Assembly (NCBI GenBank): GCA_948567375.1
Contig: OX419759.1
Span: 2,643,303-2,707,302, forward strand
Length of the DNA: 64,000 nt
Source of the DNA: Lunularia cruciata
Lineage: Eukaryota; Streptophyta; Marchantiopsida; Lunulariales; Lunulariaceae
Direction of reading: 5' to 3'
Below are positions 5,283 to 55,363 of the stretch, one piece after another. Within the stretch, counting starts at the first letter, position 1. Each line of letters opens with the position of its first letter. The position numbers and the translations under genes were made by a program. The notes below the pieces were generated by a model. It was not told the DNA's origin and ran no database searches. It worked only from the letters and a program-made list of their open reading frames with translations.

Positions 5283-6832
5283 ACTCATATTTGGAAAAGA
5301 AGAGCAGTCATCCATGCCTTTTTATTGTTCCAATAATAAAAACCACAATCTTGGCTAGATTTCTTTTGAAAGCACCTCAACTTTGCAGTTGTGCCAAGAA
5401 AAAGTGTGGGAAGTTTATGGGTGCCATCTACCTTTGAGGTAAATGCAATAGTAATATACATATTTTCCTTTTTCTTCCCTATCATCTGTTGTTGAAGAAT
5501 TATCATATTGTGTGCATTGTTCTAAAATAGCCATGTTTTGTCCATGTTGTAAATCTTTGCCAAAATGTATTTATCTATAGCTTTGCTCAAAGTTAAGAGT
5601 GCAGCTTTGATTGTTGCATTATCAACAGACCCACTTTCACCATGTGACCAAAAGCAGCAAAGGTTATGAGCCTAGACTTATGAAGCCATCCATGTGAGAA
5701 TCGACGCATCTTTGCTCCATCAATATCAAGAAATTTTGCCAAATGACAAGCTTTTTCTTGAATAAATGGCCTCTAAGAGATGCAGTATTTGTATTATTCT
5801 AAAGTACCCAATTTGCCAAAGCCATCTCAAGTTGTGGGTGAATTGAAGCAATCCATCATTTTTTTCTCAACCTTTGCATTGACAAGCTCTTTCTAGTCAT
5901 TTGCCTTCCCAAGAATCTTTGAAATAGTAGATTGTGCAAGAGCTTTTGCAAGATTGAACATAGCTTTTGCGTATTGAAGGAGTTGAAAATGCATCAACTT
6001 CAAATGCTTTGCTTTATATTCACATAAATGTCTCTTTTGCCCAATTGTCAATGTTTAGTTCACTACACAATTTTTTACTTTGGAGATAATTGTCAAAATG
6101 ATACCTTGGGTAATGCTTATGTCAAAGCTTCTTTGGAACCAAGCAATGAGTTCTCTTTGGGTTTTCCTTGTATCCACTTGATGTTTTGTGCTCCACTAAT
6201 GCTTGGCAACTTTAAGTACTGAGTTTTGATGTGCTTTGTGAGTTTGGCATGTCATTCTCTTCATCACAACTATCAGCAACATACAACCACCCGCATTTGA
6301 CTTTATGGTGATGATATTTGGTTGTGTCTATGACGCTAAGAGAGGTTCTTAAGTAATAGCTCTTTTTTCATCCTCCATTTTTCTTATAGAACATATCAGT
6401 GGTTGTGCTCATCAAAGAGTCTTCTTTGCAAGCCTTCCTGCCAAAAAGATGTACATGTGGCACTTACAACTTGGTACTTTGAGGAAATAAAAACCATGTT
6501 GCGCTTGATTTACTTGATGACATGGCTGCATCTTTTAGTTGTAAATAACATAAAGAGTTATATATATATATTAATTTTTTTACCTATATTGTGATTGTGA
6601 TGTGGCAGCATATCTTCATTGGAAACCACACAAGGCACTAGACCCAAGGAAATCAATGACATACAAGTAAACATGGAGTAAGACTATCTAGAGTGGTGTG
6701 AAAGTTGTTATATGGTGGTGATCTTTTATGTTGTGTTATTCTTTTGATTTTTGGTATATATTATACATGATCAATAACATGATATGCTCTAATATCCTAT
6801 AGGATTCTCATCCACCAAATGTATCGGATATT

Positions 6833-7572
6833 TGTAATACCAAGAGCTAGCCATATGATCTAGATGTGAAATTTGGTTTGGTAACATCTAGAATGATATT
6901 ATACATGATGGTCAAAATAGATAAGATAGAAATATCACCAAAAGAGTACTTCTACTAATAGGGTAGAAACCAAAATAGACTTGAGAACCTTAGAACCAAT
7001 AGCTAGACATATGATTTAAAGGCGAGAATTGGTTTGGTAACATTTGGAAGGATGTTACACATGATGGACTAAACAGATCAGAAAGAGGTATCACCAAAAG
7101 GGGACTTCTACTAATAGAGTAGGAACCGAAATATGCCTGAAATCTTTGAAGGCAATTTCGGAGGCCTAAACGGATGAATTAGGCCTCAAAAATGTGCAAT
7201 TCCCCCCCCCCCCCCCAATAGAGGATAGGCCGGCCTTCCCTCCCCCCTGCTTTGTCTCATCAAGAGCTTTCCAACGGTACCTTATGTGATTCTGAGATTC
7301 CTATAGGAAGATTCCCTAAAAGATTTCCTCCGGTCAAAGCTTGTTTGACCAACCAGATAGGACCTAGACCAGACATGTCACCCATCCAAGTAAGTAATCC
7401 AAGGGTGGAGCTTGCTGACATGTCACCTATCTATGTCCTCAATCCTATGGTGGAGCTTCCTTGGAGGAGATCCTCTTTGTCTTTATAATAAAGAGAAGGT
7501 GCTCCTTTGGTGCATCGAATGTTTGAGTGTGCAATTTGTGTTTCTCTCTTCTCTTGTCCTTGGAGTATTACA
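6833..7572 (+). repeat. 5' LTR of chromovirus 1
   Basis: Near-identical to 12,700-13,432. An AT-rich TATA-like segment (TTTATAATAAAG, about 7,484-7,495) lies ~80 bp before the LTR end, where a promoter would be expected. The LTR contains two internal duplications (about 155 bp and 45 bp) and a run of 15 C residues at 7,202-7,216. Confidence 0.95.
6840..7150 (+). repeat. Tandem duplication inside LTR 1 (~155 bp x 2)
   Basis: The segment starting at about 6,840 (CCAAGAGCTAGCCATATGAT) is repeated with divergence from about 6,994 (CCAATAGCTAGACATATGAT). Both copies carry the same run of sub-motifs, such as GGTTTGGTAACAT, CATGATGG and ACTTCTACTAATAG. The same arrangement is in the 3' LTR, so the duplication predates insertion. 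Repeated blocks in the U3 part of an LTR often act as enhancer repeats; that role is inferred. Confidence 0.8.
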
Positions 7573-7573
7573 A

Positions 7574-7585
7574 TGGTATCAGAGC
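7574..7585 (+). other. Primer-binding site (initiator tRNA-Met)
   Basis: TGGTATCAGAGC, one base after the 5' LTR, is the standard complement to the 3' end of plant initiator tRNA-Met used by many Ty3/gypsy elements. Confidence 0.93.
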
Positions 7586-8175
7586 AAGTGTTTTAGTCCA
7601 AGAGAGTGGATCACCCCTCTTGGAATAGCACGAACTATTGAAACTGAGTAATTTGAGGTGGAGAACATAGAGTAATTGCTAGACTTAGGAAGGACTTTAG
7701 AGAGCGGATGGGATGGATGCACCGGGAGGACAATTTCCCGTACCTAGCTTTCCATTCTCAAACCCATTCCACATCAAGGTTATGTACATCCAGCGTGAGC
7801 AGATGAGGGTATCCCTAGTTTATCACTTTGGTGTAGAGTTCATGGACAGAGTGATGAACTCATCAAACTCGGTGATTCTACCTGTGGTGATATATGACAG
7901 AGAGTGGGATTTGGCAATCTACATTCTATTATGATAATATGGATATGAATGTTTCAAATCCTCTCCCTTTCAACACTCAAGTAGAAATCCGTTATGTCAT
8001 GAGACCAAAAGTGATGTTTAGAGATTATGTGGTTAGGAATTTTGGTGAGGAGTATTATCAGCGAGTGATAGCTTCTGAGGTCCCAATGGTAGTCCTGATA
8101 GTTCGTGCGCCTTCTAGAGTGATTATATTGACTTTGTATTGAAGTAGACATTAGCAATTGAGTGTTGCAGGAACC

Positions 8176-9275
8176 ATGGATCCGCAATTGCAAGAGCTGG
8201 TGCAAGGAATGCAAGGGATGTTGAATGAATTTCAAGAGATGAAGATGACCATGGAGACATTACAAAGTCAAGTGTAGATCCTCAGGAACGATCAAGCCAT
8301 GCAAGAAGAAGAGTTGTCCCAAAACCCAGTACCTGCAACTGAAGTACTTAGAGAGGCACCCGTGCCTATGAACCCTATCAACAATGAAGCCACATTGCTA
8401 CTCCGGATGAAGAAGACCTGCAACATCAAGCCTTACAAGGGGCAGCGTATGATGGGAGTAGTGGAAAATTGGATCTTGAGAATGAATCGATATTTCCAAT
8501 TGTTCTCAACAGAGATCACAGAGCATGTTGCATGCGTGTTTGCATGTGTGTTTGCATGTGGGTACTTGACTGATAAAGCCCTCACATGGTATGATGCTTG
8601 GGAACGATCCATGTTGGCAGAGAGAAGGGAGGTCACATGGACAGTAATGCAAGAAGGACTGCTGAAGAATTTCCAATTGATGGATTCTATGCAAATGGTT
8701 CGAACCCGACTATGGGGATTGAGACAGAAGAATAGCGTACAAGAGTATGTGGAGGCATTCCTGGATCTACAAGTTGCAATTACCGACATGAGTCCAGCAA
8801 AGGCTCTCGACAATTTCAAACGAGGGTTGAAAGAGCGGATTTGCCAAGAAGTCATGGTGCAAAATCCTTGCACAGTATTTGAAGCCATTGCGTGTGCGCA
8901 GAGAATAGCAGGAGCATTAGGTGGAGGTGAAGGAGTAGTTCCACCTCAACATTATCAAGCAGAAATGCCACACATGGGCGGACCAATATCGATGGAATTG
9001 GGCAACCTTTGATTCCGGGATCGAGGAGCACAACTGCTTCAAGGGGAGCGAGGACGGGTAGAAGAACAAAGAGATGGAGTCCCACGAGGAGAAGGGACTC
9101 AAGGAGAACAACACCGTTGTTACAATTGTGGCCGTATTGGGCACATATCTACCAACTGTCGCACTCGTTTCCCTAGAGGCCCTCGGCCTTTGTACATGCA
9201 ATCTTTGAACAACATGGAGAGGCACATTGAAGAGGAGGAGGTGGAAATCACTTCGGAAAACAAAGATTGCCAATA
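8176..9275 (+). pseudogene. Gag of chromovirus 1
   Basis: Frame 1 from the ATG at 8,176 encodes a Gag polyprotein: a glutamine-rich N-terminus, a capsid-like helical region (with WILRMNRYF and ALTWYDAWE) and a CCHC zinc knuckle near 9,115-9,155 (CYNCGRIGHISTNC). In-frame stops at 8,275 (TAG), 9,010 (TGA) and about 9,273 (TAA) interrupt it. Each sits where a glutamine or arginine codon would fit. The longest open part is 8,299-9,012. The zinc knuckle would bind packaged RNA in an intact element. Confidence 0.88.
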
Positions 9276-9785
9276 AATGTACCTTGCGGCCTTACTGGCT
9301 CAATAAGGAAGCCGAGAAGCAAAGGAAGGAAGAAGAATAATGTGCAAAGATCCCAAAAGGCAACCTCACAATTGATTGTCGTGAATGGAATCCTAGAAGG
9401 TAATCCAGTGAGAGTATTAATAGATCCAGGAGCAACAGTGAATTTCTTGTCTCGCTTTGTTGCAATCAGATTGGGAATGGATCTAGAGAGAGATGGGAGT
9501 GAAGAAGTAGAGTTACCTAATGGGCAAATAGAGAGGATTGAATCATTACCTAGACGGGTAACCTTCTCTGTAGGAGAATATCAGGAAGCAATTGAGTGGC
9601 GAGTGATACAATTAGCTTGTTATGATGCAATTTTAGGCATGCCATGGATGGAGCAATACAACCCTATGGTGGATTGGAGGAAGAAAGTAGTGAGAACCCA
9701 CCAATGGTCAATCATTGGAGTTAAAGAAAAAATCACACAAGCAGAAATTGCCTCTATATGTCATAAGGACAGCAATTGTCTATAA
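9267..9785 (+). pseudogene. Aspartic protease of chromovirus 1
   Basis: Frame 3 encodes a retropepsin-like domain that would cut Gag-Pol. The active-site region reads LIDPGATVNF where the family has D-S/T-G, so the residue after the catalytic Asp is proline. The downstream ILGMPWM block, typical of the C-terminal half of these proteases, is intact. It sits in a different frame from both Gag and reverse transcriptase, so either programmed shifting has been lost or indels have accumulated. Confidence 0.85.
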
Positions 9786-11200
9786 GACCAATAGATGTTT
9801 TATGGGTCTAATAAGAGAATTCCAGAGTGCACAACTCGATGGAAAAATTCTTGAGAAACTGAAGGATGTGATGGATGAGTTTCAAGATATCTTTCTCGAT
9901 GATCTACCCTCAAGATTACCACCAAAAAGGCGAGTAGATCACAAAATTGAGACACTCCCGGGAAAGATACCTCCTTGTAAGGCCTCATATTGCCTATCAC
10001 CTCATGAGTTGGAGGAGTGTAAGACTCAAATTGAGGAGATGTTGCAAAAAGGGTTCATCATATGGGGCCCATGTCTTGTTTGTGAAGAAGAAGGATGGTA
10101 TAATGCGCATGTGCATTGACTATCAAGGTCTCAATCAACAAATACTGAAAAACAAATACCCCTTACCTCGCATGGATGACTTGTTTGATCAACTCCATGG
10201 AGCGAGATACTTCACCAAACTGGACTTGTGGAGCGGTTACAATCAAATCCGAATTGCAGAGGAGGATGTGTCCAAAACTGCCTTTCAAACCAAGTATGGC
10301 CACTTTGAGTATCTCGTGATGCCTTTTGGCCTCACCAATGCACCTGCCACTTTCATGAGTCCAATGAATGACATATTTCGTCCATACTTGGATAAGTCTG
10401 TTATTGTCTTCTTGGATGATATCTTAGTATATAGTAGCACGATGACAGAACACAAACAACATCTACGAGAGGTTCTCTAGATCCTAAGATAGAATCAATT
10501 GTATGCCAAAATCTCAAAGTGTGAGTTTGGCAAGTCTGAAGTAGACTACTTGGGGCATAGAGTAAGTGCAGAGGGCATTCAATTATTGACAAATAAAATA
10601 GAGGTCATTCAAAAATGGAGTGCCCCAGAAGATCAGACTCAATTTAAGAGCTTCTTGGGGTTGACAAGATTCTATTGTAGATTTTTCAAGGACTTTGCCA
10701 AGGTTGCATAGCCTTTAACGGCACTACTTGGCAAGGGGAAGAAGTGGACATGGGGAACTGCACAAGAGTTGGCCTTTCAAGAATTGAAGGCCGCCTTGCT
10801 ACATGCACCAATCTTGAAGTGGTATGACCCAAAACGTCCAATCAAGTTGGCTATAGATGCATCAGGCGTAGCAATAGGAGCAATCCTACAACAAGAGTGG
10901 CATGACGGATGGCATCCAATTGCATATTTCTCTCAAAAGTTGTTACCTGCAGAGCGCAACTACCACACCACAGAATGAGAAGAGTTGGCCATCGTTCTAG
11001 CAACCAAGCATTGGAAGCACTATCTGGGCGAGAAGGCATTTGTAGTAGAGACAGACCACAAACCTCTAGTCTACCTCGAGACGCAAAAGGATCTATCTCG
11101 TCGCCAAATTTGGTGGGCAGAGTGGCGACAACGCTTCAACATGACAATCACCTACATGGAAGGTAAGAAGCAACTTGCAAATGCATTCACCTGCATACCA
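9715..11200 (+). pseudogene. Reverse transcriptase and RNase H of chromovirus 1
   Basis: The segment opens in frame 1 (EFQDIFLDDLPSRLPP) and shifts to frame 2 near 10,080. It continues through RT motifs [33 protein letters not shown] and the catalytic box [10 protein letters not shown] (about 10,405-10,435). Connection and RNase H regions follow, with LAIDASG and FVVETDHKPL. Stops at about 10,478, 10,709 and 10,976 lie at positions normally occupied by Gln or Arg. RT copies the element RNA and RNase H removes the template. All core motifs are recognisable, so decay is recent. Confidence 0.92.
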
Positions 11201-12240
11201 ATGGCAAACAACTTGGTGGTAGAGGTTAAGATTAACCCTAAATTCTGGCCAAAGATTTTGGCTGCTACAAAAACTGATCCACAGATTGTAGAAGCGCAAT
11301 CATCCAAAGGTGTCACTAGCACCCAAGGACTCACCTTTTGGGATGGCAGATTATGGATCCCAAATGTCCCAAAATTACGCACCACCATTCTAGCAGAATG
11401 TCATGATTCAGCCATTGCAGCTCATGTCGGAGTGGACAAGACCTTGGATGCAATCAAGCGCCATTACTATTGGCCCACGATGAGCAATGACGTGATGGAC
11501 TACGTGCGGAGCTGCCTACTTTGTCAACAAAACAAAGCTTCTAATCAAGCTCTTGTAGGGCTCCTTCAACCTCTTCCCACTCCTACCCAACGTTGGGAAC
11601 AAGTGAGTATGGATCTCATCTGTGAATTACCCAAGACCACCTCTAAGTTTGACTCCATCGTGGTCTTTGTGGACCGGCTCAGCAAAATGATTCATGTACG
11701 CCCTACCACCAAGGAGGTGACCGCTCCACAACTAGCTCAATTATACTTAGATGTAGTCTTTGTTCACCATGGCTTGTCTATAGTACTCATCACCGATAGA
11801 GGCACCCAATTCACCAATTTGTTTTGGCAAACACTCTTTGGTTTCTTCAAAACCAAGTTGGCCATGTCCACAGCTTACCACCCACAAACAAATGGCCAAA
11901 CAGAGCGGGCTAATCAAACGATTGAAGACATGTTACGTGGCTTCACCTTAGAAGAGCAAGAGCAGTGGGACACCTTACTCCCGTTGGTGGAATTCACTTA
12001 CAACAATTTAGTGAATACATCCACCCAGGTCACTCTATTCTTCCTCATGTATGGTGAGCATCCCTTCACACCTTCTAGCTTGATGAAGATCCGTCCAGTG
12101 GCTACCAAGGTCGATGCAGTCAACACATTTGTTTCTAGAATCCAACAAGGTGTGGAGACCGCCAAGCACAGATTACAGATTGCACAAAATCGACAAAAGT
12201 AGTATGCTGATGCACACCGTAGGCACATGGAGTTCAATGT
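11200..12240 (+). pseudogene. Integrase core of chromovirus 1
   Basis: The best-preserved piece: frame 2 is open from 10,985 to 12,202. The N-terminal zinc finger shows AAHVGVDK...SCLLCQQNKA. The DDE core shows SMDL (first Asp), ITDRGTQF (second Asp) and NGQTERANQ (Glu), all present. The frame ends with TAG at 12,200, where the family continues QYAD-like into the GPY/F region. That region, with RFIGPF and HLVFHVS-type sequence, continues in another frame to about 12,430. Confidence 0.93.
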
Positions 12241-12486
12241 TGGGGATCAAGTGTGGCTATTGACAACCAACCTCACTTTGTTGGACCTTGTAAGCTCAGA
12301 CCTCGTTTTATTGGGCCTTTCTCGATTCTTCATCGCATCGGTGTTGTGGCCTATCACCTTGAGCTACCACCACACATGAAGATCCATCTAGTGTTCCATG
12401 TCTCCATACTGCACAAATATGCTCACTGATCCGGCCAGGATCATTCCACACAAGACATTCAACCTTGTCCGACACTCATTGATGGC

Positions 12487-12684
12487 ACAGAGGAATATGA
12501 AGTGGAACGGATTCTCCAAAAATGCATGTGTGGTACTTGCCATCCGCGGGTGGACTATCTAGTCCAATGGAAAGGTTACCCCCTCTATGAAGCAACTTGG
12601 GAGCCCGCTGCGAATTTGGCACATGCACCGGTGTTGGTGCATGCCTTTGAGCAACAATTGCACAATGAGGACGTTGCGTCTTAA
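12487..12684 (+). pseudogene. C-terminal chromodomain of chromovirus 1 integrase
   Basis: Reading YEVERIL...YLVQWKGYP...ATWEP is a chromodomain, with the first aromatic, the WKGY core and the final TWEP in place. In chromoviruses this module tethers integrase to modified histone tails and directs insertion to heterochromatin. It is separated from the GPY/F region by a stop and a frameshift. Confidence 0.92.
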
Positions 12685-12695
12685 AAGGAGGGAGG
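12683..12695 (+). other. Polypurine tract of chromovirus 1
   Basis: A purine-only run (AAAAGGAGGGAGG) four bases before the 3' LTR, the expected primer site for plus-strand DNA. Confidence 0.85.
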
Positions 12696-12699
12696 TCTT

Positions 12700-13432
12700 T
12701 GTAATACCAAGAGCTAGCCATATGATCTAGATGTGAAATTTGGTTTGGTAACATCTAGAATGATGTTATACATGATGGTCAAAATAGATAAGATAGAAAT
12801 ATCACCAAAAGAGTACTTCTACTAATAGGGTAGAAACCAAAATAGACTTGAGAACCTTAGAACCAATAGCTAGGCATATGATTTAAAGGCGAGAATTGGT
12901 TTGGTAACATTTGGAAGGATGTTACACATGATGGACTAAACAGATCAGAAAGAGGTATCACCAAAAGGGGACTTCTACTAATAGAGTAGGAACCAAAATA
13001 TGCCTGAAATCTTTGAAGGCAATTTCGGAGGCCTAAACGGATGAATTAGGCCTCAAAAACGTGCAAATTCCCCCCCAATAAAGGATAGGCCGGCCTTCCC
13101 TCCCCTCCACTTTGTCTCATCAAGAGCTTTCCAATGGTACCTTACGTGATTCTAAGATTCCTATAGGAAGATTCCCTAAAAGATTCCCTTCGGTCAAAGC
13201 TTGTTTGACCAACCAGATAGGACCTAGACCAGACATGTCACCCATCCAAGTAAGTAATCAAAGGGTGGAGCTTGCTGACATGTCACCTATCTATGTCCTC
13301 AATCCTATGGTTGAGCTTCCTTGGAGGAGATCCTCTTTGTCTTTATAATAAAGAGAAGGTGCTCCTTTGGGGCATCAAATGTTTGAGTGTGCAATTTGTG
13401 TTTCTCTCTTCTCTTGTCCTCGAAGTATTACA
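12700..13432 (+). repeat. 3' LTR of chromovirus 1
   Basis: Matches 6,833-7,572 with about 20 substitutions and small indels. The C-run is 7 residues here against 15 in the 5' LTR. It ends GTATTACA and is followed by TATTA. Confidence 0.95.
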
Positions 13433-15880: not shown

Positions 15881-16413
15881 TTAATGCACATGTTCCAATC
15901 ACTTTAATTCCTCATATAATATTATTCCTCATCATTTTTATCTTTCTTCTACTCAATTCATTTGAATACTTCTTACAATCAATCTCTTTTTTGAGAGCAA
16001 ATAATTCACCAATTTGCTTCTTATTATCTTTAAGTTGATTATCTTATCAATAATCCATCAAAATTTGAAAGATTGTAATAATCCACATGACTTCCTTGGA
16101 GAAAAATTCATTTTTTCTATTATTTTAATCATTTCAATAAGTAGTAAGGGAGAAGGTTGTTGTAAAAGACCAAAACCAAGGAGCAAAATAGGAGAATGGA
16201 AACTCACATTGGGACGCTTGAATATGGGAAAACTCCAAATGTCTAGCATGAGCTTCAACTTTGGTATTTATAGGTAGCATACAAGGCCCTTGAGAAGCTT
16301 CTCAAGAAGTTTCCTTGAGTCACTTTCTTAAAATGCAAGCCAAGTTAACTAGGAAGCTTCTCAAGAAGCTTCTTTTTAGAAGTTGTCTACTTGGCGTGCA
16401 AGCTAAGCTAGTT

Positions 16414-16428
16414 AGAAGCTTCTAGAAG
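16414..16428. promoter_or_regulatory. Heat-shock element in 3' LTR (proximal)
   Basis: Identical 15-mer to the one at 21,607-21,621, retained in the other LTR. Confidence 0.8.
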
Positions 16429-16475
16429 TTACTTGCTTGGGGCATAAGTTAACTAGTCATGAAGCTTCCTAGATG

Positions 16476-16490
16476 CTTCTAGAATATTCT
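16476..16490. promoter_or_regulatory. Heat-shock element in 3' LTR (distal)
   Basis: Identical 15-mer to the one at 21,670-21,684, retained in the other LTR. Confidence 0.8.
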
Positions 16491-16614
16491 AGGCTAATTT
16501 GGCTTATTCTCTACTTTGTTAGCCTTACTAAACTACATCACTAAACTCCATATTGTTACATACTCCTCCATTGCTAGTTGGTGATGTCCTCGTCGCCATT
16601 GAAGCTTCAAACTC

Positions 16615-16896
16615 CTAGATGGCAGTATGTGCATTTTGGAGGTGAGAAAGAGGTTCCCATGTGGCATCACAAAGGAGATGCCCTTTCAAAAGGACCTTGT
16701 ACTCTGTATGTTGTCGGTATCCTTGGTAGATGTGGCAACGTGCAAGGATACAATCAACTTTGTACTCCTCATGATCATTGATAGGGATATGGAGAGGAAG
16801 AGGTTGGACTTGAGAGGAAAAATAAGAGGGGTTAGGAACAAAGGGCTTCAACTTGGAAACATGAAAGATAGGATGGATGCACATATGAAAAGGCAA
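16615..16896 (-). pseudogene. GPY/F end and chromodomain of chromovirus 2
   Basis: The ORF begins after FHVSKLKPF (end of the GPY/F module) and continues to a chromodomain: EEYKVDCIL...EYKVLLKGHLLCDATWEPLSHL. The normally invariant Trp of the W-K-G-Y core is Leu here (LLKGH), so methyl-lysine binding is doubtful. The terminal TWEP is kept. Confidence 0.88.
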
Positions 16897-17079
16897 GGCA
16901 AGTCGATAAGCAACAAGAGAGACAATTTAGGTGACATCAAAAGGTCATACCCAATTAGGGGCAAGTTTACAAACTTGGGTATCAAGTGGGAGGGGTAGAT
17001 TAATAGAGGATAGCATAACTTTATCACCAACTTCAAAGGTGAGATCACGACGATGGTGGTCCACATATTGTTTTCATAA

Positions 17080-17850
17080 ATTTTGAGCAACAAGGAGGTG
17101 AGATTTGGCTTGTTGGAGAGATTCGGAGATGGTGGTCAAGAAGGTTGAAGTTGAGGGACCTAAGATGGAGGAAGAGCAAGAAGAGAATCTGAGACAAGTG
17201 GATCTTGGCCAAAATTGAGAAAGAAAGGAGAGAATCCATTGCTTGCCTATTTAGAATTGTTGTATGCAAACTCCGTAGCTGCAAGACATTCATCCCAATT
17301 AGTATGATGAATGTTGACAAAGGCACAAAGCATATCTTCCAAGGTGTGATTTGCACGTTCAGTTTATCCATCAGTTTGAGAATGATAGGTTGTGGACAAA
17401 GCAAGCTTGGTGCCAAGTATCTGGAAGAGTGCTTGCCAAAACTTTCCGGTGACGCAAAGATCACTGTTGGAGATGAGTACATGTGGCATCCCATGATGTT
17501 TGAATACATTATTGAAGTAGAGTTGCGCCAAGGTTGGAGCATCCACAGTATCAACCGTTGGTGCCAAATGGATTTGCTTACTAAGCTTATCCACAAATAC
17601 CACAATTGTTGTGTGACCTTGTTGTGTCTTGGGCAATGAGGTGATGTCTAAGCTCACATGTTCCCAGTGAGTAGTTGGAATTGGAAGAGCTAAAGGAGTC
17701 CACTCGGCTTCTGGTTATTGGCCTTGTTGCATTGACAACTCTCATACAATTGGACAAACTCTTGAACATCTCATGTCAAGTTGGGCCACCACCATTGGCA
17801 TTGGAGTGTACCCAAGGTCTTGTCCACTCCCATGTGACCAACTATTTGTA
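17080..17850 (-). pseudogene. Integrase of chromovirus 2
   Basis: The zinc-binding part reads GHMGVDKTLG...SCQCNKANN (17,700-17,850). The core has the first Asp in SLDITSLPKT. The second block is LISNSDLCVTGKFW where the family has a D-R-D/G type loop. The AYHPQTDG-like block appears as TYHSQTDG. The core is recognisable but changed at conserved positions and interrupted. Confidence 0.87.
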
Positions 17851-18106
17851 AATGATGGGTTTCTTGAAGGTGCACAAGTCAGAGATCACCTTTGGTTGGA
17901 ACATAGATTCGGTCTGCATAGAATAGAAGGCCTTCCTTGAAGAAGAAGGTGTTGTACTCCTTATTGCTTGTTGTCAGACAACCATGTACCATTTGGAAGA
18001 AGGGATCTTATTGTAGAGCTAACCAAAACTTGTTATGGACCTTGGGGTCAATTGACATCGTTGTAATTGTCACCATGATGAGAGGAAGAGACTTCAAATC
18101 AGGTCA

Positions 18107-19436
18107 TCATGATAGAGCATTAGGGATGACATGGAACCAACCTGGTTTGTACTCAAGTTTGATGTCAAAAAATTGGAGTTGCTCTTCCCATCGATGATGT
18201 TGACTCTTCATGTGTTCCAAGTGTAAGATCTGCAACAATGGTTTGTGATCAATTTGCATGATCACTTGTTTCCCCAAGAGATAATGCCTCCATACCTTGG
18301 TGGCATATACCATTGCAAGTTGTTCCGGATCTTGAGTAGAGTAATTTCTTTCAGCTATATTTAGTCTACAAGACACAAAGGCAATGGGATGTAGTCCACA
18401 TGGGAATTCCTATTGCAACACGACTCCAATTGCAAAGTTAGAAGCATCAAAATCAACCACACAAGGTAGTTGAGGATCATATGGTTGAAGAATGGATCTT
18501 GAAGACACCATATGCTTTAACTTCTGGAATGCTTCTTCATTCTTGGTGGTCCACTTGAAGCTCAATTTCTTTCCCAAGAGGTCAGTCAATGGTGCAGCTA
18601 CATGTGCATAATATCTGATGAACCATTGGTAAAAACTTGCCAATCCATTGAATGCCCGTACTTCTTTAGCATCCTTTGGGTAGGCCAATCAATAATGGCT
18701 TTGATTTCTCTTCTTCCATCTTGATCCCCTCTCATGAGATCTTATGACCCAAGAAGGTAACCTCCTTCTGCCAAAAGGCACACTTCAACTTCTTGCAATA
18801 AAATTTCCATTGTCGTAGTCGTCTTAGGACTTCTTGTACATGATTCATGTGTTCTGCCTCTATCTTGCTATAGATTAAGATATCATCCACGAACACCACC
18901 ACGGACCAATCCAATAGTCCATCCAACATCCAATACATCTAATCCATGAAAAATCTTGGAGCACTAATGAGTCCAAAAGGTAGAAATCTCCACTCAAAAT
19001 GCCCATACCTTATGCAAAAGGCAATCTTCTGCACATCCTCTCTATCAATAGGGATTTGCCAATAGCCATTTTGAAGATCCAACTTGGAAAATTATTGTGC
19101 TCTACTTTGTTGATCAAGCAAGTCATCAATCCGAGGCAAGGGATATGCATTCTTCACAGTTTGCTTATTGAGCCCATGGTAATCAATATAGAAACTAAGT
19201 CTTCCATTCTTCTTTGGAACAAATAGTATCGGTGCTTCCCAAGGAGAGGTACTATGCCGTATGAAGTCCTTCTCCAACAACTCTATAAGTGTTGTTTGCA
19301 ACTCCTCCAACTCCTTTAGTGAGAGCCGATAGATTGGTCTACTCACTAGAGTACTCCCTAGCAATAACTCAATCTTGAAATGCATACCTCGATCGGAGTG
19401 TAATCCCTTTGGCAGATCATCCAAAAACATGTCCAC
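18107..19436 (-). pseudogene. Reverse transcriptase and RNase H of chromovirus 2
   Basis: Pieces in successive frames give the RT entry region ([22 protein letters not shown]), the catalytic box VVFVDDILIYS (about 18,870-18,905), the thumb/connection (FLGHKIS; FNGLASFYQWFI) and RNase H (VDFDASNFAIG; IMQIDHKPLLQ). Three ORFs of 114, 68 and 92 codons plus the RNase H ORF (18,107-18,376) cover most of it, separated by stops and frameshifts. Confidence 0.9.
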
Positions 19437-19673
19437 AAACTCCTAAACTATCCAATCAAAAATTTCTTGATGAGGCTCTTGGCTCTCCTTAGATTGTTCT
19501 TGTGCAATTGGCTTGATCCACACGGCAAATACATACGTATCTTCCTCCAAAGCTTGCTCTATGACTGCTTCACTAACAAAATTCCCTTCCACGGACTCAT
19601 CTCTCTTCCAAGCTTGCTCCATGGTTGCCTTCTTGGAAAACTTCCCATCTTGGGACTCATCTCCCTTCAAGGC

Positions 19674-20066
19674 TCACTCTATGGCTACATTCTCAACAAA
19701 CTTCCTATTTTGGGATTGACTATTCTTAGGTGTCTTACTCAGAGGTGCCAGACAACCTAATTTGAAATTCCTACCTTGGTGTTGTATTTGAATTTGTTGT
19801 TGGGTCCAATCAAATTGAACCTTATGACATTCAAGCCAAGGTAGACCCAAAATGATATCATAGTGTAGAGGTGTCACTACAAACCTCATACACTCCAAAT
19901 ACTCCTTTCCAATCTTGAAGGTCACAAGATGCAAGGTGTGGAATGCAAAATTCTTTCTACCATCCGCCATCATCAATCTACTTCCAATTATTGGCTTGAT
20001 ATGAATACCCAATTCCTTTGCTACTTGTATAGACATGCAATTCTCTAAATTTCCAAAATCAACCAA
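19674..20066 (-). pseudogene. Aspartic protease of chromovirus 2
   Basis: Retropepsin-like fold with the C-terminal block IILGLPWLE intact. The active-site segment reads VDFGNLENCMS where the family has D-S/T-G-S/A-T, so the catalytic loop is altered. The ORF is open for 130 codons. Confidence 0.82.
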
Positions 20067-20099
20067 AATCCTACAACCTCAATTAGATATCATACCTTG

Positions 20100-21083
20100 C
20101 AAGTGAACCAACTTGCATAGGTCAAGCCTTCAATCCCATTGGAACTAATCAAGCTCCCAATAGGCGGCTCAAAATCTCCTATTGGGATTCCTCATTTCTC
20201 TGATCATTCCGCTCCACAAACTCCACCTAGGCAACTTGTTGAGGTTACACATTCTTGAGTGATCATTCAGCAATGCGATGCCCCAATTGGTGACAATAAA
20301 AACATCCACCATTTTGTAGTATTTTCTCTCTATCTGCACTACCAAGTGGTTTTTGTTGAATGGCATCAATCTCCATTGGTCTTGGCTCCTCCACTCGTGT
20401 GTAGTGTATTGTTAGGCTTTGTGGAGGTTAAGGTCAAGACCAAGTTGTTGCCGCCAAGGAATCAAAATGTTTGGCAAACCGCATGGCTTCCTCCAAGTGT
20501 TGTTGCTCTTGCATGGTTACCTCTAATTTGGTTCTTGCCTTCAAGCCCCTCACAAATTGATCCAGAGCTTCACCTTCCAATATATCTAGAATTTGCATGA
20601 TGTTGTTTTGGAACTACGTGATGTAACTTCTTACAGAGCCAATTTGTTTCAACTTTGCCAACTTATCCCATGCAACTTGTGTGTCATTTATAGCTTGGAA
20701 TCTACTAATTATTTCACTCTTGAATTCTGCCCATGTCAAGATTAGTGCAATAATTTCTCATTCAGTTCACTCCACTTGGAATCTCTACCATAGCTTTGCT
20801 ACTCCATCCAATTGGCTAGAAGCCAAGAGAATCTGTTTTTGCTTGTCTTGCAGATTGGAGCTTTAAAATAACATTCACAGTCAAACACAAAATTCTCTAT
20901 TGCACTCGGGAGATTCTTGCCTTCAAATGCCTTGGGTTTAGGGAATCGGATCCAATCTTCTCCTTCTCAAATTGGTACTCTCTTTACATCCTCTTGTCGT
21001 CAAAGATCTTGTTCATCCAACAATCGAGTAAGATGCTCAATTTGTTGTTGCATAGCAAGGATAACATCGGGTATTTCTGCCAT
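20100..21083 (-). pseudogene. Gag of chromovirus 2
   Basis: Starts at the ATG on the minus strand at 21,083 (MAEIPDVILAMQQQIEHLTRLL), followed by a capsid-like region with several stops. A zinc knuckle near 20,260-20,310 reads CFYCHQLGHRIAE and then a stop (TGA) where the last Cys should be, so the CCHC motif is broken. An in-frame TGA after LLDEQDL fits an Arg codon changed by one transition. Confidence 0.8.
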
Positions 21084-21340
21084 GGTTGTTATTCTATCAC
21101 ACCACCTCTAATCTATCTAATTTATTAACAATAGAAATAGCACGTCCACCGTTCTCCATAAGTGACAACCGGAAGCATCAAGGGTTCCTCAGATATGGTG
21201 ATCATATATAGAAAATCTTGTCCAAAGTGTGAGGTGATGAATTGTGTGAAACAATGCTTGGGTAGTACTTGGATGCAAAAATCCCAATGGTTTGTTGGAA
21301 GTGGATTTGGTGGTCCATAAATTCCATCCATCCCATTCTT

Positions 21341-21352
21341 GCTTTGATACCA
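21341..21352 (-). other. Primer-binding site of chromovirus 2
   Basis: TGGTATCAAAGC on the minus strand, one base inside the 5' LTR. It differs at one base from the initiator tRNA-Met complement used by chromovirus 1. Confidence 0.88.
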
Positions 21353-21457
21353 ATGTAAAAGACCAAAACCAAGGAGACAAATAGGAGAATGGAAACTCAC
21401 ATTGGGACGCTTGAATATGGGAAAACTCCAAATGCCTAGCATGAGCTTTGGCTTTGG

Positions 21458-21466
21458 TATTTATAG
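21458..21466 (-). promoter_or_regulatory. TATA box of chromovirus 2 LTR
   Basis: CTATAAATA on the minus strand, about 105 bp from the LTR end, so transcription would start inside the LTR as expected for the U3/R boundary. Confidence 0.75.
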
Positions 21467-21606
21467 GTAGCATACAAGGCCCTTGAGAAGCTTCTCAAGA
21501 AGCTTCCTTGAGTTGCTTTCTTAGAGTGCAAGCCAAGTTAACCAAGAAGCTTCTCAAGAAGCTTCCTTCTAGAAGCTGCCTACTTGGCCTGCAAGCTAAG
21601 CTAATT

Positions 21607-21621
21607 AGAAGCTTCTAGAAG
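21607..21621. promoter_or_regulatory. Perfect heat-shock element in 5' LTR (proximal)
   Basis: Fits nGAAnnTTCnnGAAn without mismatch (AGAAGCTTCTAGAAG), the trimeric binding site of heat-shock factors. It is about 140 bp upstream of the LTR TATA box in the minus-strand direction of transcription. Confidence 0.8.
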
Positions 21622-21669
21622 CTATCTGCTTGGGAGGCAAGTTAACTAGTCAAGAAGCTTCCAAAGATA

Positions 21670-21684
21670 CTTCTAGAATATTCT
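21670..21684. promoter_or_regulatory. Perfect heat-shock element in 5' LTR (distal)
   Basis: Fits nTTCnnGAAnnTTCn without mismatch (CTTCTAGAATATTCT). About 205 bp upstream of the TATA box. Confidence 0.8.
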
Positions 21685-22431
21685 AGGCTAATTTGGCTTA
21701 TTCTCTACTTTGTTAGCCTTACCAACTATGTTGCTAAACTCCATATTGTTACAGTTGTGAACAAAGCCAAAAAATAGCACTCATTAATAGATTAGCATCT
21801 CACAAAGTGTGAATTTCCTCATATGGCAATTGCAACCTAGTTCCATGGCCCATTCCAATGTTTGCATTATAATAGGTTCTTTATAGTGGATATTGTTCTT
21901 ACAAAGATCACCACTACGACCAACGCTAAGAATACAAAGAATCATTTTTTTGTGAAGATCTATCATCCCATGTTGTTACAAAGCTCTATTTGCATGAGGT
22001 CAATTCATTACAAAGATTAGTGGAAACAAAGTTTTATCAATGCAAACTTCCACCATGAGAAGAAACACAACAAAATTCTATGCTAATAGATATTCATGCA
22101 TCTTGCATGAATGCACTGCCAAGGACATACTATTGACTGTTTAGAGCCAAACAACAAGTATGTGGAGCATGATCACAACCTTTCATCAACCTCTATTACA
22201 TATGAAGGATAGACCTATCTTGAATAAGATTATAAAATAAGGATCACAAGGAGAACCTTTTACTTTTCATTCTTTTCCACAATCAAAATTTTATTGTGCT
22301 ATACACAAATTCATTGCCACTATTAACAAGAATCATTTTTTTCACAACAAAGTGTGAAAATTTGAGAGATGATGTAAGCAAGTGTTGGTGATAGAGTGGA
22401 TTTATGAATCTAAATAATTAAGCAGTGCTAT

Positions 22432-22707
22432 GATGAATTGCAAAGGAATGAAGATAAGAGAAATCTTTAGAAATCATAAGCAAGCCTTTAGAGATTTCCA
22501 AGTGGTGATTTTACTACAAGTTGGATGAATTGCAAAGGAGGGAAGATAGGAGAAATCTGCAGAAATCATAAGCAAGACTTTAGAGATTTCCAATTGGTTT
22601 TTTTACTACAAGTTGGATGAATTGCAAAGGAGGGAAGAAAGGAGAAATCCATAGAAATCATAAGCAAGCCTTTAGAGATTTCCATGTGGTGTTTATACTA
22701 CAAGTTG
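22432..22707. repeat. Tandem repeat, 3 x 92 bp
   Basis: Three consecutive units (22,432-22,523, 22,524-22,615, 22,616-22,707), each starting GATGAATTGCAAAGGA and each 92 bp by my count. Copies differ at a handful of bases. Not coding. Confidence 0.9.
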
Positions 22708-24109
22708 GATTACCGCAAGAGTTAGAAGTGGGAGTTCTTGCTTTGGGATTAAAGTTTGTTGAAAGTCTCTCTACTAGAGGAGATTCATAATAACCTTGAA
22801 GTGAGTGGTAAGACATTGAGTGCAAGTCTACCAATGTGGAGGAGGACCATTGGCAATGAGTTCTAGGAGAAGAGTGCTCTCCATTTGGCCAAATCCACAT
22901 GGAAAATTTCCATGGCCATCCCAGTAAAGACTTGAAGAATAGGATTGATGACTCATTTTTGGGTAGGAAGTTGAAAAATGGGTTCAAGATAGAGGATCTG
23001 TTTGACAAGTCATCACCAAAACCATTATGAAGTTATTCAGGTCAAAAAGAATGGCCAATGTGAACCTTAACAAGCAATTTTCTTCTAGCTCATGCACAAA
23101 AAACAACTTGTAATTGGGCAAGGATGTTCTAAGAATGGGTCATCAAAGTGCTAAAGGATATGGTTGAAGACACACCCATGATCATAGCTCTCTTCATCTT
23201 GCATTTCTAGATGGGAATGAACCTCCTAAACAAGGAGGAGCTAACCCAACCTAAGCCCAAGCTCCTTCTACCATCTAGCATACTTCAATGAACATTCTAA
23301 CCTGCCTAAAGAAATCACAAATATCACAAGGTGGACAAGGATTTTTCTTGCAAGAAGAAGTTTATGCATGTCACCAAAACCTACAATACAATAAGCATCC
23401 AAAAGAAGGTGAACAAGGTAAGGACCTAGGTTCAAGCTTCCAAGGACACAAAAAAGTGGTTCAAAAAATTGACCATCATCTAGTGAAAGCATAATCAAAG
23501 AAGCTCTAGGGAAAAAAAGGAGACCTTGAAGTAAGGGGAGAGGTTGAACAATCCACCTCATACATGATTAGGAGCACAATCTTATTAGAAAACATGGAAG
23601 CTAGAAGTGATGACTCCTTCACTTGGATCTTATCACATGTACAAAATGACAAGGTGCATATGGGAGACCATAACTATGAAGCACAGTTATTACCGTTGGC
23701 AAATAACAATATGACTACAAGGATATTTCATTCAAAGAGAAAGAACTGGATGAGGGAGACAACTGGATCTCTATCTCCAAATTGAGGAGAACTCTATCAA
23801 GAACATTAGCTTTTGTCAAATTTGTCTTAAGGATGCCAAAAAGAAAGGCAAGGTTGTTTTGAATGAAAAACAATGACAAAATGAGGTAAATAGAGCAAGA
23901 ACAAACCTAGAATGTCATCCAAGTAAGAACACACTTCCAAGAGATGATCTAGCATCCTAGTGGAAGAAGAGTCTATGAGTGGACAACAACAAGCAAACTA
24001 GACAACAAAGAAGACTACTAATAAAGATCCAACCAATGAGGGAAGAAAGGAGGATGAACCAAATCAACCCATACAGGCTTGGGCAAACAGTAAAGAACAA
24101 CCCACAAAT

Positions 24110-25094
24110 ATGAGCACAACCAAGGCCCCACATGAGAATCACATGAAATGCAAAAATAACTTGCTCTCATGGCTGATGGTTGTCTATATTGTGAACATTG
24201 TTAAGCCCACAATGGAAGCCTTGGAGGAGTTCTTGCCATTATATAAAAAAATCAAATCCATGGTTGATGACCCAAAACACTTGCATAAGCTGGCACAATC
24301 AACAACCAACACTTGTATAAGCTGGCAAAATCAATGACCAAGGAGAAGACCTTTTACATTCAAAATTGATTGAGGTCAAGCAGCAACTTAAGGAGAAGGA
24401 CAAAAGTGAGGGAAAATTCTAGAAGGATGAGCTTCTCCAACAAGAAAAATATGATGAAATCATTTTAAAGCTAAAGGTAGAAGTAGAAAATTATTGCATT
24501 CCAACAACAAGAGTAGTATGAAGATGAATTATAGACCCAAGACAACGAATTGCAGACTCTATGAGCTAAATTAGAAGAGGCCAAAACCAAGACAATGATA
24601 GCCTAAACACAGTATGACAATCCAAAGAAGACAATCAGTTTCTATATCTTGGACCTCAATACAAGTCTTCAATGGTAGTGGAAGAAGGAATAACAACAAT
24701 GCATGAAGATACATGACAATTTGTTGATGAAAGTCTAGAGTGAAAGAACCAACCTTGAGAATGACTAGACGGGGCTCATTGCCCTATCCGAGCATACAAC
24801 CACTCAACTCTTGAACTAGTTAGAACACATTGCTGGCAAGAACCCCAACATATGAAGCTGAGAGACTTGAGAACTCATATCTACATACTAGAGTGGAGGG
24901 CCTATACACATGAACAACTCAAGGTGTTGTTTGTTAAACTATATGAGCATACCAACTCCAAGTTCAAGGACACCCAAACAAGCTTAATACAAATTTTTGA
25001 TGGTTATAGGAAGGAGCTTGTAGAACTAATCCAGATACATAAAGCAACAAGTAGGTCATCACAATTGTTGCCAATTCATATTGATGACAAATAA
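24110..25094 (+). pseudogene. Unrecognised coiled-coil repeat family, copy A
   Basis: Broken reading frames encode charged, glutamine- and lysine-rich helical segments. One conserved block (MEALEEFLPLYKK near 24,210) is matched on the opposite strand at about 28,865 (MEALEELMPMYNK). The last piece is an 80-codon ORF ending at 25,094. The family has no domain I recognise. It could be the gag-like part of a retroelement or a non-autonomous element. Its copies are repetitive and decayed, so a host gene is unlikely. Confidence 0.5.
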
Positions 25095-25470
25095 CAACCA
25101 CAACAACTTCATACAAAATGAGTGGCAGCAAATTTTGTCTAAATGACTAAGTGTCATCTTGTAGATAGGATATGGTATTTTTGTAGTCATAGTTCATCAC
25201 AAGTGTTGCCAAATCATACTGATGACAAGTAATGACAACAACAACTTCATACAAAATGAGTGGCAGCCAATTTTGTCCAAATGACTAAGTGTCATGTTGT
25301 AGATAGGATAGGGTAGTTTTTTTAGTCATAGTTCATCACAAGTGTTGCCAATTCATATTGATGACAAGTAATGACCACAACAACTTCATAAAAAATGAGT
25401 GGCAACTAATTTTGTCCAAATGACTAAGTGTCATCTTGTAGATAGGATAGGGTAGTTTTTATAGTCATAG
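25056..25470. repeat. Tandem repeat, 3 x ~138 bp
   Basis: Units start at 25,056, 25,194 and 25,333 with TCATCACAA and share AAATGAGTGGCA and AAATGACTAAGTGTCAT. The array begins within the end of copy A of the coiled-coil family. Confidence 0.9.
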
Positions 25471-47614: not shown

Positions 47615-48043
47615 ATGGCGCCTAAGACAGCGGTTGATGCTGAGAAGACAGCAGGGAAAGGAAAGGGCGAGAAGAAGCCCCGAGGAAGGCCGAAAGCTGA
47701 GAAGAAGCCAGCCAAGGAGGGAGGTGCCAAGGAAGGAGGAGCGAAGAAGAAGAAGGCCAAGAGAGGAACAGAGACCTACAAGATTTACATCTATAAGGTG
47801 CTCAAGCAGGTTCATCCCGAATTTGGTATCTCGTCAAAGGCCATGGGGATCATGAATTCGTTCATTAACGATATTTTTGAGAAGTTAGCGCAAGAGGCCG
47901 CTAGACTGGCACGGTACAACAAGAAGCCTACCATTGCTTCTCGTGAGATCCAGACTGCTGTTAGGCTAATTCTACCAGGCGAGCTTGCAAAGCACGCCGT
48001 ATCCGAGGGAACCAAGGCGGTGACGAAGTTTACTAGTGCCTGA
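47615..48043 (+). CDS. Histone H2B
   Basis: Intronless 142-codon ORF. The N-terminal tail is long and lysine-rich ([15 protein letters not shown]), as in plant H2Bs. From about residue 50 the histone fold reads [61 protein letters not shown] and ends AVTKFTSA. The C-terminal Lys (residue 138) matches the site of H2B monoubiquitination in the family. H2B pairs with H2A in the nucleosome. The codon use is GC-richer than the flanks. It is transcribed on the opposite strand from H4, 14 kb away, and the two do not share a promoter. Confidence 0.98.
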
Positions 48044-52939: not shown

Positions 52940-55363
52940 TCATGACCTGTTCGGATTGACCTTCATCTTATAAGTAAGAACTGGCCTCATCAAAGCCACA
53001 ACAGTGCAAAGATTAGCTGCAACGAGATCAGCAATAACGCAGGCGACATCTTTGTAAGCTTCAGGCCTTTCCTCAAAGAGCAAACTTTTATCATCACATA
53101 CTACTCGTGAACCTAAAGCTGTAGTTCTCATATCGTTGGCTACTTGACGAGCTGACTTGACATCGGCCGATTGGCGAGGTTTCCCCGATGAACGAGCTAC
53201 AGAGCGTGCAATTGCTCTGCCAGCCCCGTGAGCTAAAGACCAGCCACTGGCTAAAAATTGCACTTGATCTAATGGTTTGACCAGATAGCTGAAAGCGCCT
53301 CGTGAACCAGGAATCAAAACCAAGCCTTTGTCTGTAGGTGCAGCTCCTTTCCTGTGCAACCAGATACTCTTCGCCTCGGAGTCTTTGACCAATCCAGCAA
53401 CCTGAATACATAAAACCTGTCATAAGATGCCCCTCCACTGATCTCTTCGACAAACTCTGCCTGAGGTGTTAGACTTCTCTACAACTCATTACAGAAGGTG
53501 TTGTTCCTTCGGCCCTTCATATGGAACTATGTGTTCACACTTCAGTGATCATATAAGCTACTGTACTCACTCGGTTTAAGCTTCATGTCGGCTGCGACTT
53601 CGAAGAGATAATGCTTACCTGTGAGTTATCGGCAGTCCGAAGTTCAACAACGTTATTGTGCGTGATATCAAGAAGAGTCCCTTTGCAGCTCGCTTGTAGC
53701 TGATTTAGCATTCTTTCACCAATGATCCGCCTATTGACTTGAGCCCATTTGCAGGCCTGCCCGTGTTTTTCGAGGTAGGCTTGGGCTTCAGATGTCTCCT
53801 GTGATTGGATGCTTACAAGTTAGAGGCAGATTATGATGAACTCTCATAATCTAGAGAAATTCCAAAAGATTTTAACAATAAGAGGTGCCATGCACTGACC
53901 ACGGATAAGCCTTCTGAACTGCTTTCCCCTGAATGGGCTTTGAGAACACTCTCCCCGAACCCTCGCGATCCAGAATGCACACAGAGATAAACGTCCTCAG
54001 CACTCAAACCGAGTTGGGCTCCCTGTTCTGCATCTTCAATTCTCTCGATAACCTGTCCAGCAGCAGACTCGTGTCACATAATGAAAACTCAACTGTCCAG
54101 CAGTCAATTAGTTTGAGAAGATTTTAAAGTGGGAATAAGTATCAAACTACCTGCAATTCAGCAAAGTGATTACCCCTCCCTATAGTACCTAGTGAACCTG
54201 CGTCAAAAGAGGTTGCCTGAACCCCAGCATTTGCAAGTGTTCCTGCTTAAACAATATACAGGCAGTGTACATTTCAGTAAACGAACCGTTTCAATTCTAT
54301 TGACGGAAGGATTAAAAACGAATAATTGATATCTTATCTTAGAAACAAACGTGACCTTTTGACTGGAAGCAGAATCTACCTGAGGCATCACCGTCCCAGG
54401 GGTCGTCTATATGTACACTATCTGCCCACCGGTCCAACATGCGAGGTTTGTTGGCAGCTGAAGCTTTTAACGATGTCCTTATCAGCATGATACCACATCC
54501 AATATCGGAGCCAACAAGAGAAGGGTATATGACCCCCTGAGTAGCAATAGCGGCTCCAATAGGGCATAACCCTCCCACATGGAGGTCTGGGAGACCCACC
54601 GCTAACACAACTCCATTTAGAGAAGCAGCCCACTTCAGCTGCTTCTTCGCCTCGGCTTGAACGAAACTCTCGTTTGCGACAATCATTACCTCACCAGGAA
54701 TACTGCGTCTGTTGGCATTTTCATCTTGTCCTGAATAAGAGACACTTACATCACTTAAATTACAGTACTGAAGCAAGTCTGGAAAGGCTTAAGCACCTTA
54801 ATTCCTCGAGCTGAAAAGCACACGTGTTGTAAACTGTCAAGGCATTCCAACGACACCGATCCAAACACAAGCGCTAAATTCCTTACGTCCTTTGGATAAT
54901 TCCTGAAAGTTTTACAGCACCATTTAGTCTATTGTTGAGAAGTCCGCAAGAACAAGTACAAAAGTCTGTCTTTGACATCAGGACTTCAACTCACTGCTAT
55001 AACATTTTCGTATTGCCCATTACTAGACGAGTCCCAGCAAAACTAACCTCTCGTTTTACCCGCGACGCAGGACTCCTCCCCTGAGGAAACGTACAATGTC
55101 CCACCAGTTTTGATCCTGGCCTCCGCAGAAACCTTATCTGAATTATGAAGCTCAATCCCTCGATCGTCGAAGAGCCTCAAATTGGACTTTGAGATACGCC
55201 ATTTGTTTGCAGCCACCTTCTGAACCTCCTCCAGAAGATCCTTCCCACCTGCTGCCCCTCCCACCACCACGGTACGAAAATCATTCTGTTTCACATTTAG
55301 TACCAGCTTCAAGACAATTTTTTCTGCCTTTCCGCGTTCTGGTTTCTCGTTCTGGCTCTCCAT
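52940..55363 (-). CDS. RtcB-like RNA ligase, PrfH-associated type, with N-terminal extension
   Basis: Six exons read on the minus strand: 55363-55048, 54730-54380, 54242-54151, 54052-53900, 53798-53619, 53401-52940. All junctions are GT-AG and in frame, giving 517 residues. Residues ~106-517 match the RtcB subgroup that bacteria encode beside release factor PrfH. Metal and GMP-binding residues are all present: D181 and C184 in GSDIGCG, H248 in RGNHFAE, H279 in VHSGSRG, H351 in DITHNN, H422 in LAHGAGR. RtcB enzymes join RNA 2',3'-cyclic phosphate ends to 5'-OH ends using GTP and manganese. Residues 1-105 are an added region with a beta-grasp look (NLRLFDDRGIEL...GGTLYVSSGEE), like ubiquitin or doublecortin domains. 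No transit peptide is obvious. GGGNH is RGNH-type here (GRGNH). Confidence 0.92.

Follow-up and report, generated by a model that had tools for sequence, protein, structure and literature searches.

The window analysed here, a stretch of 64,000 nucleotides, contains an LTR retrotransposon on the minus strand (16156-21758), a second Ty3 element, a histone H2B gene and an RtcB-type RNA ligase gene. The H2B gene consists of one open frame (47624-48040) whose product matches that of Marchantia polymorpha along its full length at 98% identity, that of Calypogeia fissa over 97% at 96% identity and those of two Riccia species at 91 to 93% identity, among the best 120 of 6072 matches; the rows placed above Marchantia by bit score are longer proteins of 66 to 81% identity, mostly from other plants and animals. 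Judged by this gene the host is a liverwort and not a flowering plant, in agreement with the original prediction, which had placed the element in a plant lineage other than that of Arabidopsis. The genome searched amounts to 565.8 Mb, eight contigs making up 98.6% of this, and the published assembly of Lunularia cruciata, of 580 Mb, has been described as enlarged by Ty3/gypsy bursts (PMC9985172).

The retrotransposon is bounded by a perfect 5-bp TSD (GTTGT on the plus strand, at 16156-16160 and 21754-21758) and by two LTRs in direct repeat, both on the minus strand: a 5' LTR of 400 bp (TGTAAC...TTTACA, with TG..CA ends; 21354-21753) and a 3' LTR (16161-16560), with 34 differences between them over 399 aligned sites (K2P 0.092). 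Directly inside the 5' LTR, at its inner end, lies the PBS TTGGTATCAAAGCA (21340-21353, minus strand), which is presumably complementary to the initiator tRNA-Met, and this combination of LTR pair, PBS and 5-bp TSD is that of a Ty3/gypsy element. The coding pieces, all on the minus strand, are arranged in Ty3 order, with those of integrase and chromodomain scoring below the Pfam cut-off: an aspartic protease piece at 19674-20078 (PF13650 narrowly over cut-off at E=4.4e-5; PF13975 below it at E=1.1e-5), an RNase H domain in two pieces at 18107-18688 (PF17917, E=2.6e-19, and PF17919, E=4.1e-12, both over cut-off), an integrase core piece at 17364-17714 (PF00665, E=0.0013) and, weak in this decayed copy, a chromodomain at 16630-16764 (PF00385, E=8.6e-4, 19.6 bits for a cut-off of 25.1). 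A further minus-strand piece at 19092-19442 was assigned, by position and presumed likeness, to the expected place of the reverse transcriptase; the Pfam search found no reverse transcriptase in the window copy, and this piece had only a sub-threshold Tudor-knot match. Because the coding pieces lie in several frames and are broken by stops, the window's own copy is dead, and it is old.

The class of the element can be read in its sister copies. In four stretches of these, PF00385 exceeded the cut-off in two (E=1.1e-14 and 5.9e-8) but not in a third (1.2e-4), and the remaining one, of integrase, had no Pfam match. A chromodomain at the C-terminal end of the integrase characterises Ty3/gypsy chromoviruses, and the E-value of 1.1e-14 bears out the prediction of a chromodomain Ty3/gypsy element. 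The Ty1/copia coding region that defines the ONSEN family was not found, the chromodomain and a Tf2-type SH3 domain being of the Ty3 type. A search for relatives in viral contigs was without result, and the integrase piece had 26 matches, three of them with a species name and none of these three a liverwort.

The 5' LTR contains two perfect trimeric heat-shock elements (HSEs) at the places originally proposed, 21607-21621 (AGAAGCTTCTAGAAG) and 21670-21684 (CTTCTAGAATATTCT). On the minus strand these are, by motif scan, an inner trimer, TTCTAGAAGCTTC (core 21608-21620), and an outer one, GAATATTCTAGAA (core 21671-21683), both upstream of the minus-strand TATA box CTATAAATA (21459-21467) that we read in the LTR sequence, and both belong to an array in U3 (21487-21683, minus strand) which consists of ten two-unit HSE modules and likewise lies upstream of this box. 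Both trimers are also intact in the 3' LTR, despite the ~9% difference between the LTRs, as had been noticed before. None of 5000 shuffles of the 5' LTR reached its two trimers (shuffle mean 0.0036), and one of 5000 did so for the 3' LTR. Moreover, the 5' LTR has ten GAAnnTTC/TTCnnGAA pairs, whereas its 5000 shuffles average 0.30 and never exceed 4, and among 1240 further 400-bp stretches placed along the window in 50-bp steps none had more than 4 pairs; a single further trimer (24412-24424) occurs in the window outside the LTRs of the element. In four sets of family LTRs the means were 8.95-12.57 HSE pairs and 0.07-0.25 pairs of a reversed-motif control.

For the nearest relatives of the window LTR, 40 of 6123 candidates were scored and gave 42 matches; without two short ones, of 53 bases, there remained 40 LTRs, among them the window's two. 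These LTRs have 7 to 11 HSE pairs each; at least three adjacent nGAAn units, that is, a trimer of any kind, were present in 34 of the 40, the inner trimer was exact in 31, TTCnnGAAnnTTC was found in 33 and six had no trimer. Exact TATAAATA occurs in 35 of them, both window LTRs among these, and all of their 316 modules lie upstream of it. The trimer at 21670-21684, however, is not general in this group, being found in 5 of the 40 LTRs. We also considered whether the survival of both trimers through ~9% LTR divergence reflects constraint, and rejected this reading of the pair: core sites differ by only 4.4% within elements (20 pairs).

A second LTR was sought for 35 of the 38 other LTRs, the remaining three (L016, L026 and L037) having been left out as probable solo LTRs because visual inspection showed the same 5 bp on either side of them. 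A full partner was found for 19 of the 35 (K2P 0.046 to 0.100), one partial match was dropped and for 15 there was none. Divergence between elements was 0.95 to 1.34 times that within elements, a pattern in the window's group as after one burst. At least three units were present in 16 of the 19 partner LTRs, and nine of the 19 were of a longer form (425 to 430 bp), seven of these nine with a four-unit HSE. In fact, in many copies with a site longer by 14 bp the inner trimer becomes the four-unit HSE GAAgcTTCtaGAAgcTTC. This 14-bp stretch can be present in one LTR and absent from the other of the same element (423/409 and 425/411 bp; L096/L129 and several pairs of the first sample), and its loss or gain switches between the four-unit and three-unit HSE in several of these.

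The first 40 LTRs were rejected as a fair sample of the family, and because the 400-bp query favours the short LTRs of the window's old group, a second sample, blind to HSEs, was drawn by means of the LTR/PBS junction. This junction occurs 6028 times in the genome with up to 2 mismatches, and its reversed control not once; from the exact junctions listed, all on contig C1, alternate entries among the first 80 were sampled (n=40), and the requirement of an exact match biases the sample towards young copies. At least three perfect adjacent units were found in 36 of these 40 LTRs and at least four in 23, the outer trimer also in 23, and 39 of them have 6 to 14 HSE pairs, L111 having none. Exact TATAAATA is present in 39, with 406 of 407 modules upstream of it, and 37 of the 40 LTRs show at least six modules upstream of exact TATAAATA, which supports the layout of a heat-responsive promoter proposed from the window copy. 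L103, L110 and L111, which have no clear LTR start, were kept in these counts and left out of the clustering (37 of 40 clustered). One cluster of 17 LTRs is young, two of its members at different places differing by 0.2%; all 17 have a trimer and 14 have the outer one. The expectation that other copies carry the trimers at the same positions was therefore only partly confirmed, with a mixed outcome in the window's old group and a favourable one in the younger copies.

Partners were sought for 20 LTRs, 15 picked from one of the younger clusters and 5 from the other, and found for 14, with K2P of 0.0024 to 0.0485, matching TSDs in 11 of the 14 and a four-unit HSE in 13. The two youngest pairs have 1 difference in 423, matching TSDs and a four-unit HSE in both LTRs, which shows recent insertions of the family. 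Substitution rates of 6.5e-9 to 1.3e-8 changes per site and year, which are not calibrated in liverworts, would give ages of ~0.1 to 0.2 My for the youngest pairs and ~3.5 to 7 My for the window copy. Across the genome, the family thus has many more copies, and more recent ones, than the window alone would suggest.

According to TRF analysis of four single LTRs, the U3 array is part of an imperfect tandem repeat of ~60 bp together with a 10-bp tandem unit, and the repeat units of which U3 is built bear the GAAnnTTC/TTCnnGAA modules. Among 534 modules of 59 LTRs, 334 have the inner bases of GAAGCTTC and 119 those of TTCTAGAA; since most modules share inner bases, part of the HSE enrichment is due to duplication of one module. 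Could the modules then be a mere by-product of tandem duplication of the palindromic GAAGCTTC unit, with no regulatory role? The repeats, the dominance of GAAGCTTC and the variation of the 14-bp stretch at the inner HSE between two LTRs of one element would all fit such an origin. We hold it to be very improbable, however, because GAATATTC and TTCTAGAA modules retain the triplets despite other inner bases, and because between subfamilies the triplet columns have changed less than other U3 columns. This comparison used three subfamily groups (40 first-sample LTRs and 17 and 11 HSE-blind LTRs, with 12 HSE-blind rows outside clusters dropped). Net divergence between them was 0.0069 per column at 61 HSE-core columns versus 0.0689 at 236 other U3 columns (permutation P = 6e-4), and near-fixed differences were found at 0 of the 61 and 16 of the 236. 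The HSE-core columns are also less mutable within groups (0.027 versus 0.071), and of 5000 draws matched for this variability, 73 gave a divergence as low (P ~0.015). The stability is not peculiar to the HSE cores, because R/U5 is likewise stable between subfamilies (0.0131 per column, 112 columns), and within the window's group the core/control divergence ratio of 0.78 (0.58-1.04) was not significant. We regard these data as moderate evidence that the elements that spread have kept their HSEs.

All these data suggest, with a probability that we put at about 0.7, that the LTR is the HSF-driven promoter of a very abundant liverwort chromovirus family, working like that of ONSEN in an unrelated element, and that heat probably switches the family on. 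The four-unit HSE of 23 of the 40 HSE-blind 5' LTRs lies, where measured, ~150 bp upstream of the TATA box, and most LTRs of the youngest cluster have an extra perfect three-unit HSE ~240 bp upstream of it. Heat would activate HSF as trimers, these would bind the U3 array, RNA polymerase II would start at the LTR TATA box to yield genomic RNA, and this RNA would be copied and inserted at new places; in this chain we infer the binding of HSF, the induction by heat and the aid to the spread of the family. Alternatively, the HSE repeats might be a general U3 enhancer, acted upon by another factor or by HSF under other stress or in development, with heat not the main trigger. Plant LTRs often carry tandem enhancer repeats, which counts for such a role. 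So does the response of the moss Ty3 family RLG2 to ABA besides heat (PMC7466625). Nevertheless, it is the GAA/TTC triplets that are stable, and these alternate every 5 bp in the phase of HSF trimers, and this phase is extended to at least four units in more than half of the HSE-blind LTRs, so that we consider a general enhancer unlikely.

The heat-driven promoter that we favour could be woken by heat in the younger copies only, because the window copy is broken and its LTRs have diverged by ~9%. A related account is that the promoter was heat-responsive during the spread of the family and that host silencing now blocks the response. The depletion of CG and CHG in the LTRs (observed/expected ratios of 0.21 and 0.14, with 0.25 and 0.42 in the TE half of the window) fits methylation, and the pairs of the window copy and its nearest relatives, at K2P 0.046 to 0.100, also agree with this account. 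We find it rather unlikely, as the LTR pairs with 1 difference in 423 and matching TSDs indicate recent insertion and the commonest modules (GAAGCTTC, TTCTAGAA and GAATATTC) contain neither CG nor CHG.

On the genome scale, the context of the inner HSE (up to 3 mismatches in 25 bases) occurs at 17,979 places, three-unit forms included, and its reversed control at none. The perfect four-unit HSE occurs 7083 times versus 117 for the reversed pattern, and by this excess the family holds ~98% of the perfect four-unit HSEs; 49 of the first 50 distinct places listed have the family's letters, the exception being C1:366499, and only 5 of the 50 lie within fetched stretches. The HSF DNA-binding domain was found over cut-off at two places, a lower bound from an exon-by-exon search. 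One of them, a putative host locus on a 1.25-Mb contig (G000:C14:50658-51116), contains stops inside the match, perhaps owing to an intron. In Marchantia, HSFB1 has been reported to bind an HSE in EMSA (PMC12445474). Given ~7000 four-unit HSEs for two HSF-domain places, it is possible, although we propose it only tentatively, that the family supplies nearly all strong predicted HSF sites, that heat launches the family, which would also be a sink or new wiring for HSF, and that the host heat response evolved around it.

The original parallel with ONSEN is supported at the sequence level, there being an HSE cluster in the LTR of a different type of element. In ONSEN (ATCOPIA78) of Arabidopsis the LTR cluster likewise couples the element to HSFs: the LTR is a target of HSFA2, which binds it, and without HSFA1 genes there is no activation (PMC3907296). 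Four-unit HSEs have been described as the strongest type, and ONSEN has four-unit and gapped HSEs (PMC5059998). However, ONSEN is a Ty1/copia element of Brassicaceae, although one review table lists it for adzuki bean too (PMC9780303), and the liverwort family is a Ty3 chromovirus with its HSEs in a tandem array, so that it would work like ONSEN but is not ONSEN. The scale also differs, with 55 ONSEN copies in A. lyrata (PMC5059998) and ~18,000 places with the inner-HSE context here. The nearest match in scale is that of the Caenorhabditis Helitrons, which hold most HSEs (61.4%, 11,527/18,766, in C. elegans; PMC6927752); these are nematode DNA transposons with HSF-1 binding data, whereas the liverwort sites are predicted and belong to an LTR retrotransposon.

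MAGGY, a fungal chromovirus, is raised by heat. Heat-raised Ty3 elements are already in print for a moss, a bamboo and a conifer. RLG2 of Physcomitrium patens, likened here by its description, is a bryophyte Ty3/gypsy family with RNA raised by heat and ABA (PMC7466625), and the activity of PHRE1 and PHRE2 of moso bamboo is raised by heat (PMC8656106), as is that of Ty3/gypsy elements of Cryptomeria japonica (reviewed in PMC9780303). The factors described as interacting with the PHRE LTRs are of the TCP, DOF and GATA types, and HSE as a term has no occurrence in that report (PMC8656106). A review contains the terms 'chromovirus', 'heat stress' and 'heat shock factor' (PMC12786077), and another study concerns a fungus whose elements are mobilised by heat (PMC12810828). 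Neither a liverwort LTR nor a chromovirus promoter was described as carrying HSEs in the titles and abstract openings searched, with subscription journals thinly covered. If the family is heat-driven, LTRs of a second superfamily, and in a plant without vascular tissue, would have captured HSF on their own, here to an extent that alters the genome. The family would then offer a direct test of whether stress-driven promoters underlie the Ty3/gypsy bursts that enlarged some liverwort genomes, and of the way in which a plant deals with thousands of HSF sites on transposons when its HSF genes are few.

Finally, the window has other contents. The second Ty3 element (6831-13369, plus strand) has LTR pieces that are 96% and 99% alike in two 300-base stretches, gag, RT and integrase matches at 8278-12202, and one HSE pair per LTR. 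Short tandem arrays of three copies each lie at 22432-22710 and 25040-25455, with units of ~92 and 139 bp. The RtcB-type RNA ligase gene is present in two pieces on the minus strand (52943-53419 and 54342-54788; PF01139, E=2.4e-23 and 7.3e-15); flowering plants use another tRNA ligase, so that an RtcB gene in the nuclear genome of a liverwort could be noteworthy.
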